NCBI RefSeq assembly: GCF_000189755.2
Contig: NZ_KI912183.1
Span: forward strand, 1,614,257-1,678,256
Reading direction: 5' to 3'
Origin: Desulfotomaculum nigrificans DSM 574
Lineage (GTDB): Bacteria > Bacillota > Desulfotomaculia > Desulfotomaculales > Desulfotomaculaceae
Length of the DNA: 64,000 nt
Below the pieces are notes generated by a model. The model did no database searches and was not told where the DNA came from. It saw only the letters and a list, made by a program, of their open reading frames with translations. A program made the translations under genes and the position numbers. Of the stretch, positions 17,964-25,452 are shown piece after piece; position 1 is the stretch's first letter, and each line of letters opens with the position of its first letter.

Positions 17964-19430
17964 TTTTGTGTAATTGGTTATAACTACTAATAAGGAGTTG
18001 AATCAATTATGCAAAACGTAAAGAACAGATTGGCAGCAGAATTAGCTAAGGAATGCAAAAGCATGGATGATGTCCATAACATGCTAAAGGATCTTTTTAA
18101 GGACACCATTCAAAAAATTCTCGAGGCGGAAATGGATACTCACCTGGGCTATGAAAAACATGACCCTGCCGGGGATCTTTCTGGCAACAGTAGGAACGGA
18201 TACAGTAAAAAGACTGTTCAAACCCAAATGGGCAGAACAGAAATTAAGATTCCCCGTGATCGTAATGGCGAGTTTGAGCCACAGATCATCAAGAAATACG
18301 AAACTACAGCCAATGAACTTGAAGAACAAATTATTGCCATGTACGCTAAGGGCATGTCCACCAGGGACATAGAAGACCATATGCGGGATATTTACGGCAT
18401 TGAAGTCTCTGCAGCTATGGTCAGCAAGGTAACTGATAAAATCCTACCTATGATTGCAGAATGGCAAGCCAGACCGTTGGATCGGGTTTACCCCGTAGTC
18501 TTCCTTGATGCTATTCACTTCAAGGTGCGTAAGGATAACCGCATTGTCAATAAAGCAGCCTATAGTGTACTGGCCATTAACATGAACGGCCAAAAAGAGA
18601 TACTAGGCATCTGGATTGGCGAGCATGAAAGCGCCAGTTTTTGGCTCGGTGTCTGCAATGACCTTAAAAACAGGGGTGTTGAAGACATCTTAATTGCCTG
18701 CAAAGACGGTCTCTCCGGTTTCAGTGAAGCCATTAACGCTGTTTTCCCCAGGACAAGGATACAATTATGTGTTATTCACCAAATTCGTAACTCTATGAAA
18801 TATGTATCCTACAAAGAGCAGAAGGCAGTAATGACTGACCTTAAGAAGGTTTACCAGGCTTTGACCCTTGAAGAGGCTGAATTTGCCTTTGAGGAATTTA
18901 AAGAGAAGTGGGGCAAGAAACACCCTATCATAATCAAGTCTTGGGAAAACAACTGGCTGGAACTAACGGCTTATTTTGAATATCCTTATGAGATCAGGAA
19001 GATGATCTACACGACCAACATTATCGAAGGTTACCATCGGCAGTTAAGGAAAGTGACCAAAACAAAAACTGCTTACCCAACTGACGATGCTTTAAGAAAG
19101 ATTATTTACTTGGCAACAGAATCAATCTCAAAGAAGTGGACTATGCCAATCCGGGAATGGAGGAATTGTATCTCCCAACTTGCAATATACTTTGGGGATA
19201 GAGTTCAGCCAGGGATTGCCTAAAAACAATGGGTTAGGTAACGGGTTTATCGCTTTAGTTCTCCCGGAGATAGTCATAAAAGGAAGAAAGCTGGGAATAA
19301 TATCCTCAGCTATCTCCGGCAGAACCCTGCGGGCGCTCGGGTTGCTCCCCAGCATTGCCCTATCCTCCCGACAGGTAAGAGCCACTATAAGCCTACCCAA
19401 TATCTGACGGAATAATCCAATTACACAAAA
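17964..19430 (+). mobile_element. IS256-family insertion sequence
   Basis: The terminal inverted repeat TTTTGTGTAATTGG at 17964-17977 matches CCAATTACACAAAA at 19417-19430, flanking one transposase gene. No target duplication is visible (GTAATTAG on the left, TTTTGTAC on the right), which suggests a deletion accompanying or following insertion. It sits within a spore-coat gene. The 200 bp downstream of the transposase (19224-19416) hold an inverted repeat, CCGGAGATAG and CTATCTCCGG. Confidence 0.85.
18009..19223 (+). CDS. IS256-family transposase
   Basis: A full-length, 404-residue transposase of the mutator type: DMKDLFKDTIQ-like N-terminus (NMLKDLFKDTIQKILEAEMD), LSGNSRNGYSKKTVQT, the first catalytic Asp in YPVVFLDAIHFKVR, the second in LIACKDGLSGFSEAI, the CxxH segment LCVIHQIRNSMKYV, and the Glu in TTNIIEGYHRQLRK. 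The ATG at 18009 follows AAGGAG. No frameshift, so it is probably active. Its insertion disrupts a DUF3794 gene on the opposite strand. Confidence 0.95.
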   Translation: MQNVKNRLAAELAKECKSMDDVHNMLKDLFKDTIQKILEAEMDTHLGYEKHDPAGDLSGNSRNGYSKKTVQTQMGRTEIKIPRDRNGEFEPQIIKKYETTANELEEQIIAMYAKGMSTRDIEDHMRDIYGIEVSAAMVSKVTDKILPMIAEWQARPLDRVYPVVFLDAIHFKVRKDNRIVNKAAYSVLAINMNGQKEILGIWIGEHESASFWLGVCNDLKNRGVEDILIACKDGLSGFSEAINAVFPRTRIQLCVIHQIRNSMKYVSYKEQKAVMTDLKKVYQALTLEEAEFAFEEFKEKWGKKHPIIIKSWENNWLELTAYFEYPYEIRKMIYTTNIIEGYHRQLRKVTKTKTAYPTDDALRKIIYLATESISKKWTMPIREWRNCISQLAIYFGDRVQPGIA

Positions 19431-22014: not shown

Positions 22015-22300
22015 GCTCTGCCATACAAGTCCATATTTGGGTCTATTTAAATAGGCATAAAAACCGCTCTTGGAAACATTAAGAATCTTAGCCATCTTCA
22101 CAACCCGAAATTCAGAGCGGTTTTCCTCCATAAACCGGAAGCGTTCTATTTCAGGTTTTTCGCGAAGTAGGCTGCCGACTTTTTTAAGATAGCGTTTTCC
22201 TCTTTCAAATCCATATTTTCTTTATGTAATCTACGAAGCTCTTCGTCAGCTTCGTGCAAGTGACCGCTACCGGGAAAAGCCTTATCTCCATGCTTACCGA
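22015..22300 (-). pseudogene. IS3-family orfA/orfB fragment
   Basis: On the minus strand 22300-22146 encodes the end of an IS3 OrfA: FPGSGHLHEADEELRRLHKE, then EENAILKKSAAYFAK. The next frame, 22130-22015, encodes the start of OrfB (EENRSEFRVVKMAKILNVSK, SGFYAYLNRPKYG) and then breaks at copy B of the inverted duplication. It is a different IS3 type from that at 15639-16837. Neither end is present. Confidence 0.75.
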
Positions 22301-22304
22301 ACTT

Positions 22305-22445
22305 GCTGATCCACCCATGCAGCGTGTAGCTTCTTTCGGATTCCACCTCACGATGGACACCCTTGCTCTTGGCTAACAGTTGGTGTTGCCAACCCCTGTT
22401 CGGGACTTTCACCCTAGAGCTATCGCCCATGCCGGGCATACCACA
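22305..22445 (-). pseudogene. 5' end of a group II intron (class C type)
   Basis: Read on the minus strand from about 22445: GTGGTATGCCCGGCATGGGC, AGGGTGAAAGTCCCG, and AAGGGTGTCCATCGTGAGGT with GGAATCCGAAAGAAGC. These are the conserved blocks of domain I at the 5' end of group II introns. It starts a few bases after a strong terminator hairpin, which is the preferred insertion site of class C introns. The intron is cut at about 22300 by IS3 sequence. Could be the other end of the remnant at 15250-15617, which has the same orientation. Confidence 0.6.
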
Positions 22446-22449
22446 TAGA

Positions 22450-22480
22450 ATAGAGGCCGCCCCTATGGGCGGCCTCTCTA
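22450..22480 (-). terminator. Terminator of the GGDEF/HD-GYP gene
   Basis: AGAGGCCGCCC-ATA-GGGGCGGCCTCT is an 11-12 bp GC-rich hairpin 15 bases after the stop codon of the minus-strand gene. The usual T tract is replaced by TATTCTATGTGG, where the group II intron 5' end begins. Confidence 0.8.
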
Positions 22481-22494
22481 TCTCTGGTCTGTCT

Positions 22495-24162
22495 CTATGT
22501 ATTAAAGGTTTCCGATTGGGATAGGACAAGACTGACAAAAAGACTGCATAATGAGGGATCATAATGGGTGCCTGCCATTGATAATATTTCTTGGCAAGCA
22601 GTTTCTGCGGTCATGCCTTTTTTGTAGGGTCTGTCCGTAGTCATGGCATCAAAGCTGTCTACAATACGTATAATCCGTGCGCCAAGTGGGATATTAGACC
22701 CGCTAAGGCCCAGCGGGTACCCCGTACCGTCATAGTTTTCATGGTGATGGAGGATATAGGGTCTAACCTTAGCCAAGGACTTAATGGGCCGAATAATCTC
22801 GCTACCCCAGTAGGGATGCTGCTTGAGAACCTCCCACTCCTCTGTGGATACTCGACCCGGTTTATTCAGGATATTAATATCCACTTCAATCTTACCTATA
22901 TCATGTAGGTATGCTCCGTACTGAATAAAACGAACTTCTTCTTCGTTTAGCCCACACTTTTGGGCCAGTAAAGTGGCGTATTTCAGCACCCTTTCAGAAT
23001 GCCCATAGGTATAGCGATCCTTGGCGTTGATAATACTGAGAAGCGTTTTAGTGGAGCTCAGAAGCTCCATTTCAGATTGGTCACAGGTACCTTTTAATGT
23101 ATCAAGGACGTTAAAGTATAATTCTATTTTGTCTTTGCTGGTCCTTTTTGCTTTATAAAGGGCCTGGTCGGCCAACTCCAGTAAATCTTCGCCAGATTTT
23201 GTATGTTCCGGGAAACTTGCTACTCCCACGGTAATACTCAATTTGCCGGTGGGGAGTTGATTGACCTTCTCATCGTTTAGTATTAGTTCATTTATCTTAT
23301 CTTTAAGCTTCTTCGCTGTTAGAAAAGCGGCCTTTGAGTCATGGTGCGGCAGCAATATACAAAATTCATCACCACCATACCGGGCAGCAATACCGGGGTG
23401 CTTTATCTCCTGCAACAGAACTTGCCCTACATCTCTTAAGACTTGATCTCCGGCAGTATGCCCAAAGGTGTCGTTATAATACTTAAAAAAATCTATATCA
23501 AAGATAATGAGGCTAATGGGTTGGTTGGTTTCCTTTGCCTCTTCTACTGATTTCTTAAAGTAATCCTGGAAGTATCTATGGTTGTAAACACCGGACAAAC
23601 CATCTTTGTTGGCTAATTCAAGTAAGTAATTTCTTGTGTCTCGTTCAATACTGGCAATCCCCCCGATAAGCCAGGCACAGATAAACATGACACCTGTGAA
23701 GATAATATCAGATTCGAAGTATCTATTGGGGAACTTAAAACCGTATTTATATAAATCTCCTAGACATAATAGTAAGCCACTGCCGAAAGCAATGATACAA
23801 CCAAATTTTTTGCTTTTCGAAAATGATGCAAAAGCAACTGGTATGATTAAAAGGGTCTTTAGGTAATAATCGTGAAAATGGGCAATTAGGATAAAAATGA
23901 AAGTTGAAAGCAACAGTGTCCCAACAGAAAGTGCATTTAAACGGGGCATTATGCCAGAGCCTAATAATGCAACTAGTAAGCAAAGCACTAATAAAAAGTT
24001 ATTACGAAGATAGTTTGGTATGCTTTCATATGTCTGACTAGCTGTTATATTCCAATTAAATTTAAATAAGATAGCCATGCCAAAAACAATTGCACAAAGC
24101 AGAAATATGATAACTCTTAGCTCTTTGAAGTTATTCTCTCTTTTATGTTGCCATTCATTCAT
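22495..24162 (-). CDS. Membrane GGDEF and HD-GYP protein (cyclic-di-GMP turnover)
   Basis: About 555 residues. Some six hydrophobic segments fill residues 20-175; a GGDEF domain follows with RYGGDEFCILLPHHDSK intact, so diguanylate cyclase activity is possible; then a linker and an HD-GYP phosphodiesterase domain with YLHDIGKIEVD, HHHENYDGTGYPLGLSG and the HD ligands present. Having both activities in one protein suggests signal-dependent switching by the membrane part. I prefer the ATG at 24162; a GTG at 24174 is in frame but has no ribosome site. It lies 80 bases after the agr autoinducer gene, separated from it by a terminator, so any link to quorum sensing is by position only. Confidence 0.88.
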   Translation of the reverse strand: MNEWQHKRENNFKELRVIIFLLCAIVFGMAILFKFNWNITASQTYESIPNYLRNNFLLVLCLLVALLGSGIMPRLNALSVGTLLLSTFIFILIAHFHDYYLKTLLIIPVAFASFSKSKKFGCIIAFGSGLLLCLGDLYKYGFKFPNRYFESDIIFTGVMFICAWLIGGIASIERDTRNYLLELANKDGLSGVYNHRYFQDYFKKSVEEAKETNQPISLIIFDIDFFKYYNDTFGHTAGDQVLRDVGQVLLQEIKHPGIAARYGGDEFCILLPHHDSKAAFLTAKKLKDKINELILNDEKVNQLPTGKLSITVGVASFPEHTKSGEDLLELADQALYKAKRTSKDKIELYFNVLDTLKGTCDQSEMELLSSTKTLLSIINAKDRYTYGHSERVLKYATLLAQKCGLNEEEVRFIQYGAYLHDIGKIEVDINILNKPGRVSTEEWEVLKQHPYWGSEIIRPIKSLAKVRPYILHHHENYDGTGYPLGLSGSNIPLGARIIRIVDSFDAMTTDRPYKKGMTAETACQEILSMAGTHYDPSLCSLFVSLVLSQSETFNT

Positions 24163-24202
24163 AAAACCACTCACTATATATAGGTAATACTTTTTATAAA
24201 AA

Positions 24203-24231
24203 ACAAAAGAGTGAAGTAATCACCCTTTTGT
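24203..24231 (-). terminator. Terminator of the agr operon
   Basis: On the minus strand, ACAAAAGGGTGA-TTAC-TTCACTCTTTTGT followed by TTTTTTATAA. It lies 12 bases after the agrD stop. Confidence 0.75.
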
Positions 24232-24242
24232 CTTTCCACGTG

Positions 24243-24374
24243 TTACTTTCTAAGTGCCTGAGGTAACTTAGGTTGATAGTGTATTACACCACAAGCAGAA
24301 GCAGAGTTAATAAGAGCTGATAAAGTCAATACAATGGTTGCTATAGTTACTAATATTGACTTAATCCTTTTCAA
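24243..24374 (-). CDS. agrD: AgrD-type cyclic autoinducer precursor peptide
   Basis: A 43-residue peptide starting at a TTG at 24374 behind a perfect GGAGGTGAAACAA and overlapping the end of agrB by 14 bases. The layout is that of AgrD: a basic amphipathic N-terminal leader (KRIKSILVTIATIVLTL), a small Ala-Ser stretch, then the core with one Cys (ACGVIHYQPKLPQALRK). The PKLPQALRK tail corresponds to the conserved PxxPxxLR recognition tail of clostridial AgrD, and the Cys would form the thiolactone with the C-terminal residue of a short core. Processed and exported by AgrB. No ATG start, which is why it is easily missed. Confidence 0.88.
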   Translation of the reverse strand: MKRIKSILVTIATIVLTLSALINSASACGVIHYQPKLPQALRK

Positions 24375-25005
24375 TTGTTTCACCTCCTTTTCTACTAATA
24401 ATACTTATAAGCTTATCCAAGAAAAATATCACCCGATGACCAGTAGATGTTAACATGAGGTACTGCCAAAGTAATCCTATACTTACTGCGTAGTTTACCA
24501 GAGATTTATTAAAGTAGAAAAAAGTTATAAACTGACTGCCTGAGATCAAAAGCACCGACAATAAGGCTAATTTCCTTAATACCTTTCTTTGCTCTAAATT
24601 TAAAGGTTTTTGTGGAGATTCTACCGGTGCTTTCATATAAACTATTATAATCCCAATAATAAAAGTACCAATAAGAAAATAACTCAGAAAGTGTTGTACA
24701 TAAATAACCGTATCCCTGGCTATATAAGCCAACAAATTATAAGAAGCAACAGTGATTAGCAAACAATTGAAGGGGTGTGCACTATGGGCACCTCCGGCTG
24801 TCTTTCGTATCATAAATGAAGCTAACAACATATAAAAAATGAGAACATGTAAATCCAACAAATATCCTAGGCATAAGGTAATAAAGATACCTGAAAACAG
24901 TCCTAATAGCACCTCTGCCCCAAATGCAAGAATCTCTTGTTGGTCTCTATCTTCTATACCTTTATGTTTAATTAAGTAATTGGCTAACTTTTGGCTTAAA
25001 GGCAT
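24361..25005 (-). CDS. agrB: AgrB-type peptide-processing membrane protease
   Basis: A 214-residue integral membrane protein with about six hydrophobic segments. The catalytic pair is visible in RKTAGGAHSAHPFNCLLI: the His in GGAHS and the Cys seven residues later, as in AgrB cysteine endopeptidases. AgrB cleaves the C-terminal tail of AgrD and cyclises it. The ATG at 25005 follows GGGAG. It starts three bases after the upstream membrane-protein gene and overlaps agrD, so all three form one operon. Confidence 0.93.
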   Translation of the reverse strand: MPLSQKLANYLIKHKGIEDRDQQEILAFGAEVLLGLFSGIFITLCLGYLLDLHVLIFYMLLASFMIRKTAGGAHSAHPFNCLLITVASYNLLAYIARDTVIYVQHFLSYFLIGTFIIGIIIVYMKAPVESPQKPLNLEQRKVLRKLALLSVLLISGSQFITFFYFNKSLVNYAVSIGLLWQYLMLTSTGHRVIFFLDKLISIISRKGGETIEKD

Positions 25006-25008
25006 AAA

Positions 25009-25452
25009 TTATCTCCCTACGTTTTTTATTATAATACCTAAGAAAAAAACAAGAATAACGTGGGGTAAACCAGATAGAAACCACCATAAAGGATTACTAA
25101 GAACAACATCAAATTGTAATGATAAGACACGGGTAAATAAGAAAGCAATAAAGAATTCTGTTATAATTATCACAGTATAAACTAATATCATCCCAAAAAG
25201 TGTTGAAGAAAGTTTTATATTATAGTAATAACTTAGGAACCCAGCAATCAAACAGATTAATAGTAAGGTATGAATACCGAAACTTATTGGTAATTTTCTT
25301 ATGACAAAAGTTAGAACAGAATAAACTACTGAAAAAAGCAATAACTCTTTTTTTGTCCAGATAATTTTAGTAAAAGCAAAAAGAAAGAAAAAAATGCTTA
25401 TACCTTCTAAAAACGCCAAAACAAAATATAGAACAGGTGGTATATTTCCCAT
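25009..25452 (-). CDS. AgrC-like membrane sensor without kinase domain
   Basis: A 147-residue protein of five to six hydrophobic segments (for example YFVLAFLEGISIFFFLFAFT at the N-terminus) with almost no soluble part. The size and position before agrB match the N-terminal peptide-sensing half of AgrC-type receptors, but the frame stops at 25009 with no histidine-kinase segment in any frame up to agrB. The ATG at 25452 follows GGAGGACCT. It may be a stand-alone receptor, an immunity factor, or a membrane protein of other function; I see no sign of a frameshift. Confidence 0.6.
   Translation of the reverse strand: MGNIPPVLYFVLAFLEGISIFFFLFAFTKIIWTKKELLLFSVVYSVLTFVIRKLPISFGIHTLLLICLIAGFLSYYYNIKLSSTLFGMILVYTVIIITEFFIAFLFTRVLSLQFDVVLSNPLWWFLSGLPHVILVFFLGIIIKNVGR

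Follow-up and report, generated by a model that had tools for sequence, protein, structure and literature searches.

A proposed agr-like signalling module in Desulfotomaculum nigrificans that joins a detached AgrC sensor domain to a GGDEF-HD-GYP protein

How can an agr-type peptide signal be read if there is no AgrC kinase to read it? The question is raised by a locus of Desulfotomaculum nigrificans DSM 574, where neither a kinase nor a response regulator adjoins the signal genes. The locus lies in the stretch of 64,000 nucleotides that we analysed (the window). We think it likely that it encodes a four-gene agr-like module for cell-cell signalling, in which a detached receptor, Orf147, would bind the cyclic peptide and gate an adjacent c-di-GMP enzyme.

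All four genes are on the minus strand. In the order of transcription they are the gene for Orf147 (25452–25009), agrB (25005–24361), agrD (24374–24243) and, behind a hairpin (24236–24198), the gene for a GGDEF-HD-GYP protein (24162–22495). AgrB, the peptidase/exporter, matches its family over the full length (PF04647, E 8.8e-40). A preliminary description of the locus had called 24243–25452 a complete module; its agr genes are confirmed, but the interval omits the fourth gene on the same strand. That description was right in seeing no AgrC kinase: only the sensor domain is present and the kinase domain is absent. An AgrA LytTR regulator is also missing from the locus, and every LytTR match of the genome lies elsewhere. 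Because AgrC kinase and AgrA are absent, the module is not a canonical agr two-component system. It would act like the signal part of an agr system, but with another output. No Rfam match was found between 22000 and 26000, and the promoter scan returned 8 sites, with 9.0 expected by chance.

The signal peptide itself is of a recognised type, since its score against NCBIfam TIGR04223 ('AgrD family cyclic lactone autoinducer peptide') exceeds the cut-off (37.7 bits versus 19). The AgrD that was initially described as unlisted is therefore real, but it belongs to a known type. As described, it has 43 residues, starts with TTG and overlaps the end of agrB. The TTG at 24374 is preceded by GGAGG, while an alternative GTG at 24383 falls inside the sequence GGAGGTG, which makes the 43-residue reading the better one. 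In this form the ring cysteine is residue 28 and not residue 29, as was first proposed. AgrDs of relatives with the same gene arrangement keep a common pattern, a Cys followed by four residues (the last often H, F, I, W or L) and then Y-Q-P. For an AgrD pentapeptide of Clostridium thermocellum, LC-MS/MS has confirmed a five-residue ring (S25–F29) and a tail that starts at the conserved Y30 (PMC5322536). Because that ring ends just before the conserved Tyr, we predict a ring of C28-G-V-I-H32 (codons at 24279–24293), with the tail YQPKLPQALRK next. By analogy, the mature signal would be the five-residue thiolactone Cys-Gly-Val-Ile-His.

The proposed receptor subunit is Orf147, a stand-alone membrane protein of 147 aa. 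The observation that this sensor-like gene has only membrane segments holds: no kinase or other family of Pfam or NCBIfam reaches its cut-off, and the AlphaFold (AF2) model consists of five long helices (mean pLDDT 94.9). A fold search of the PDB with this model gave no match (best E 3.1). With an alignment of 13 proteins of about 150 aa from the genus we searched the order for the family, which we call R150 and for which both Pfam and NCBIfam lack a model. Of the 113 genomes of the order, 92 have R150, which is mostly a stand-alone protein of 150–180 aa. Across the phylum it is present in 121 of 299 sampled genomes (76-row alignment A5). We rejected the idea that Orf147 is a frameshifted or decayed AgrC; the stand-alone protein is the usual form in the order.

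What connects R150 to AgrC is a fused form. In 14 agrB loci the R150 domain is the N-terminus of an AgrC that continues with two more helices and a GHKL kinase. These fused proteins are mostly 439–516 aa long; the one at L145 is broken at 341 aa. Comparing the R150 family with the fused N-termini by hhalign gives a probability of 97.7 (E 1.5e-12), and a profile made from stand-alone R150 only finds them with E-values of 2e-29 to 2e-36 (hmmsearch). The same profile matches an AgrC on a gut scaffold from a phage collection, where AgrB and LytTR are its neighbours (E 5e-6). Sequence comparison makes Orf147 a homologue of the sensor domain in genuine AgrC kinases: the N-terminal multi-helix sensor domain is there and the C-terminal GHKL kinase is not. 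In known systems, this part of AgrC binds the peptide. Among 76 diverse R150 members E16 and H61 are invariant, and R52, G59, E99 and P130 are nearly so; the positive-inside rule would place R52–H61 in an outer loop. Some agrBD loci carry two or three R150 genes in tandem (L037, L040, L090, L091, L095, L097, L098, L106, L111, L114 and L181). The extra copies are possibly additional receptors for other peptides.

The partners of R150 become apparent when its neighbourhoods are compared. We annotated close to 100 agrB loci with local HMMs and distinguished four architectures. In type A, which is that of the window, R150, AgrB and AgrD precede a membrane domain fused to GGDEF-HD-GYP. In type B R150 occurs with a membrane domain fused to a HisKA kinase, and in type C it lies beside a separate two-helix GHKL kinase, often with LytTR. 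Type D is the fused AgrC with LytTR. Type A is found in 25 genomes from 15 genera and 10 families of the order, and its flanks have any homologue in common in only 25 of 283 between-genus locus pairs. What had been described as an unusual wiring is common rather than odd within the phylum. A search with a 5-row alignment also found related loci in Desulforamulus putei, Desulfoscipio geothermicus and Pelotomaculum. It had been suggested that close relatives might carry an AgrC kinase and AgrA beside the module, in which case the window would merely have lost them. The relatives do not show this. LytTR adjoins agrB in none of the 25 type A loci, in none of the 37 of type B, in 14 of 22 of type C (split GHKL) and in 13 of 14 of type D (fused). 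Two loci deserve separate mention. In one of type A (L174, 3957–7465) a HisKA kinase is inserted between agrD and the enzyme, so that two proteins with membrane domains of one kind, the kinase and the GGDEF-HD-GYP protein, follow each other in tandem. At L177 (4719–7087) a single R150 and a single GGDEF-HD-GYP gene accompany two complete agrB-agrD pairs, whose rings differ.

The proposed output of the receptor is a protein of 555 aa with a membrane domain, a GGDEF domain (PF00990, E 8.6e-41) and an HD-GYP domain (PF13487, E 1.8e-39). Its start, the ATG at 24162, was picked from the alignment of relatives. The motifs RYGGDEF, HDIGK and HHENYDGTGYP are intact, which points to a bifunctional GGDEF/HD-GYP c-di-GMP enzyme whose activity is predicted; the I-site motif RxxD ahead of GGDEF appears to be absent. 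The aligned type A enzymes keep both signature regions with few departures, and the one at L033 ends early after the HD motif. A transposase-like remnant (22146–22562) overlaps the 3' end of the window gene, and the window protein is without the last few residues of its relatives. A Mutator-type transposase (18009–19223) lies 3 kb beyond this remnant. With 19 GGDEF matches, 3 c-di-GMP-I riboswitches and 2 PilZ matches in its genome, this bacterium probably uses c-di-GMP. Two genes lie near a c-di-GMP-I riboswitch at another place in the same genome (L221, 1635–2348 and 32–1432): one encodes a stand-alone EAL protein, the other a membrane sensor that ends in an ATPase region.

The N-terminal membrane domain of the enzyme (23617–24162) is MASE/DUF4118-like and is common to the histidine kinases of sister agr loci. 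A profile built from four GGDEF proteins of the genus also matches these HisKA kinases; hence, two kinds of output are attached to one and the same membrane domain. This genome has it in a single copy, the one in the window module. Of its 110 matches in the order, 66 have a listed R150 no more than 2.5 kb away, and of 20 sampled matches without a listed R150 another 16 adjoin agr genes. Since the other four (L165, L167, L169 and L172) have no agr genes, the domain is probably able to work without the receptor. At L172 (3900–4300, relative G003) the enzyme gene persists, agrBD was not found and what looks, by eye, like the decayed start of an R150 gene lies upstream. The locus reads like a module that is losing its signal genes. 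The AF2 model of the window domain has a pLDDT of 76 and a weak fold match to Pseudomonas ImcA (PDB 8wcn; TM 0.59, E 0.07). DUF4118 is weakly matched by 22 of 34 membrane domains of relatives.

Receptor type is inherited together with the membrane domain of the partner. On the receptor tree (92 rows) the distinction between a membrane-domain partner and a GHKL partner takes one change, and the four classes together take 8 changes compared to a mean of 48.4 after shuffling. The output behind the membrane domain switches several times on the same tree. Such a pattern would suit a receptor that has adapted to its contact, the membrane domain, and not to whatever catalytic output follows. Joint inheritance of the whole operon produces such congruence as well and also contributes. 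With somewhat less assurance than for the module itself, we lean towards a wider reading: the AgrC sensor would be a separate, phylum-wide subunit that docks onto a dedicated membrane domain with exchangeable outputs (HisKA kinases and c-di-GMP enzymes), and the peptide would control c-di-GMP in one step, without two-component phosphorylation.

One could also argue that the membrane domain of the enzyme binds the peptide itself, and that Orf147 is an accessory only, for example a helper of AgrB or a buffer of the signal. The domain has several helices and is found mostly with agr genes, and the position of Orf147 directly against agrB would suit a helper. Against this stands that the receptor phylogeny follows partner type. 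Orf147 is also homologous to just that part of AgrC for which peptide binding is general knowledge, and loci that pair one agrBD with two or three copies of R150 (L037, L040 and L098) fit receptors better than processing helpers. We regard this alternative as unlikely.

Could the peptide be read by an AgrC encoded elsewhere in the genome? There are three agr loci in this genome, each with a membrane protein of about 150 aa (Orf147 in the window, Orf158 at L029 and Orf150 at L030). At L029 (7867–10786, about C1:2312866–2315785) Orf158 lies beside a PAS histidine kinase that is split by an IS30-type transposase (L029 8707–9753), and this agr system may be dead in this strain. L030 (G000:C1, about 2.3–5.1 kb) encodes a split AgrC, which consists of Orf150 and a 283-aa GHKL kinase, together with a LytTR regulator. 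Hence, the search for an AgrC/AgrA pair elsewhere that was proposed with the preliminary description does find a split AgrC with LytTR, but one with its own AgrD and another ring, CLGII instead of CGVIH. If it nevertheless read the window peptide, Orf147 and the GGDEF protein would be bystanders, which is at odds with the conservation of the four-gene block in 25 genomes. A relative with a complete, single-contig genome (G006) also speaks against a reader of the L030 type. Its single agrB and its single R150 are both in a module of the window type, no AgrC/AgrA is detectable in the genome and the sole LytTR adjoins a LytS-like kinase. Because G006 has only this agr system, the module must work there without AgrC/AgrA, unless some new kind of receptor is involved. 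We consider a reader at L030 quite improbable. The preliminary description had left two options, a receptor elsewhere or a kinase-less membrane protein that acts through another partner. Homology to the AgrC sensor, the conserved GGDEF-HD-GYP partner and G006 favour the second of these over the first.

The gap between agrD and the enzyme gene holds a 17-bp hairpin that runs into a U-run (24198–24236, fold z −3.9). The terminator scan of the window returned nothing, although the folding shows this hairpin. Because the terminator-like hairpin separates agrD from the enzyme gene, their co-transcription may be partial. As a partial terminator, the hairpin may make receptor and peptide more abundant than the enzyme; it is also possible that it is an attenuator that sets the ratio of receptor to enzyme. 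In relatives, the mean z of the gap between agrD and the output gene is −2.9 in type A (20 loci), −2.15 in type B (23), −2.7 in type C (6) and +0.8 with fused AgrC (4), for short sequences and modest samples. A strong hairpin (z < −2) is seen in 12 of 20 type A loci and in none of the four fused-AgrC loci, and examples of split-receptor loci with a strong hairpin in this gap are, besides the window, L036, L039, L074, L146, L148, L170 and L178. That the GGDEF-HD-GYP gene is an unrelated neighbour, cut off by the hairpin from a module without a working local receptor, is very hard to believe, given that the block recurs in 25 genomes whose flanks are mostly unrelated and that the enzyme shares its membrane domain with the kinases found at the corresponding position of sister loci.

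In the mechanism that we propose, AgrB would process AgrD into the predicted cyclic thiolactone CGVIH. Orf147, the equivalent of AgrC helices one to five without the kinase, would sense the peptide at the outer face. Across the membrane, it would relay the signal to the GGDEF-HD-GYP protein by way of that protein's N-terminal membrane domain. Contact between the two proteins would then switch the balance between c-di-GMP synthesis and hydrolysis, with c-di-GMP rising or falling as a result. The last helices of AgrC and the GHKL kinase would thus have given way to a different membrane domain, and with it to another output.

The conservation of the arrangement in at least 25 genomes suggests that quorum signals can be wired straight into c-di-GMP. 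If this is true, one membrane complex links cyclic-peptide quorum sensing with c-di-GMP, and the AgrC sensor turns out to be a module both portable and autonomous. AgrC-peptide recognition would become testable on a protein of 147 residues. The R150 profile could serve as a search tool for the missing receptors of orphan agrBD pairs, and gram-positive sulfate reducers would gain a candidate signalling system. For Desulfotomaculum, the passages found in a 2016 review mention only LuxR-type proteins (PMC5187520). The literature that we searched, from which most subscription journals were absent, describes neither an AgrC sensor detached from its kinase nor agrBD genes joined to a c-di-GMP enzyme; a prior description is possible.

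How does the module compare with known systems? It shares the AgrB and AgrD families with the agr system of Staphylococcus aureus (AgrB-AgrD-AgrC-AgrA), and its receptor is a homologue of the sensor domain that AgrCs of this phylum carry. Unlike in S. aureus, the sensor domain is a separate protein, GHKL kinase and LytTR are missing, and a GGDEF-HD-GYP enzyme takes the place of the output. Orphan agrBD pairs, without adjacent agrC and agrA, are already known from Clostridium perfringens (PMC7492741) and, as Agr1, from Clostridioides difficile (PMC8534292). The receptor proposed for C. perfringens is a separate kinase, VirS; the abstract on Agr1 names no receptor. In the window, by contrast, a detached AgrC sensor domain lies beside agrB. 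The C. thermocellum pentapeptide has the same five-residue ring and a tail that starts with Tyr and has a Pro five residues further on, but it closes as a lactone through Ser, whereas the predicted thiolactone of the window closes through Cys; no AgrC or AgrA was identified for that system and no agr operon was reported (PMC5322536). Finally, a membrane domain followed by GGDEF is also found in membrane-anchored GGDEF and GGDEF-HD-GYP proteins with MASE or DUF4118 domains, such as ImcA (8wcn). What sets the window enzyme apart from these is that it is coupled to a peptide-signalling operon and to a separate receptor-like subunit.
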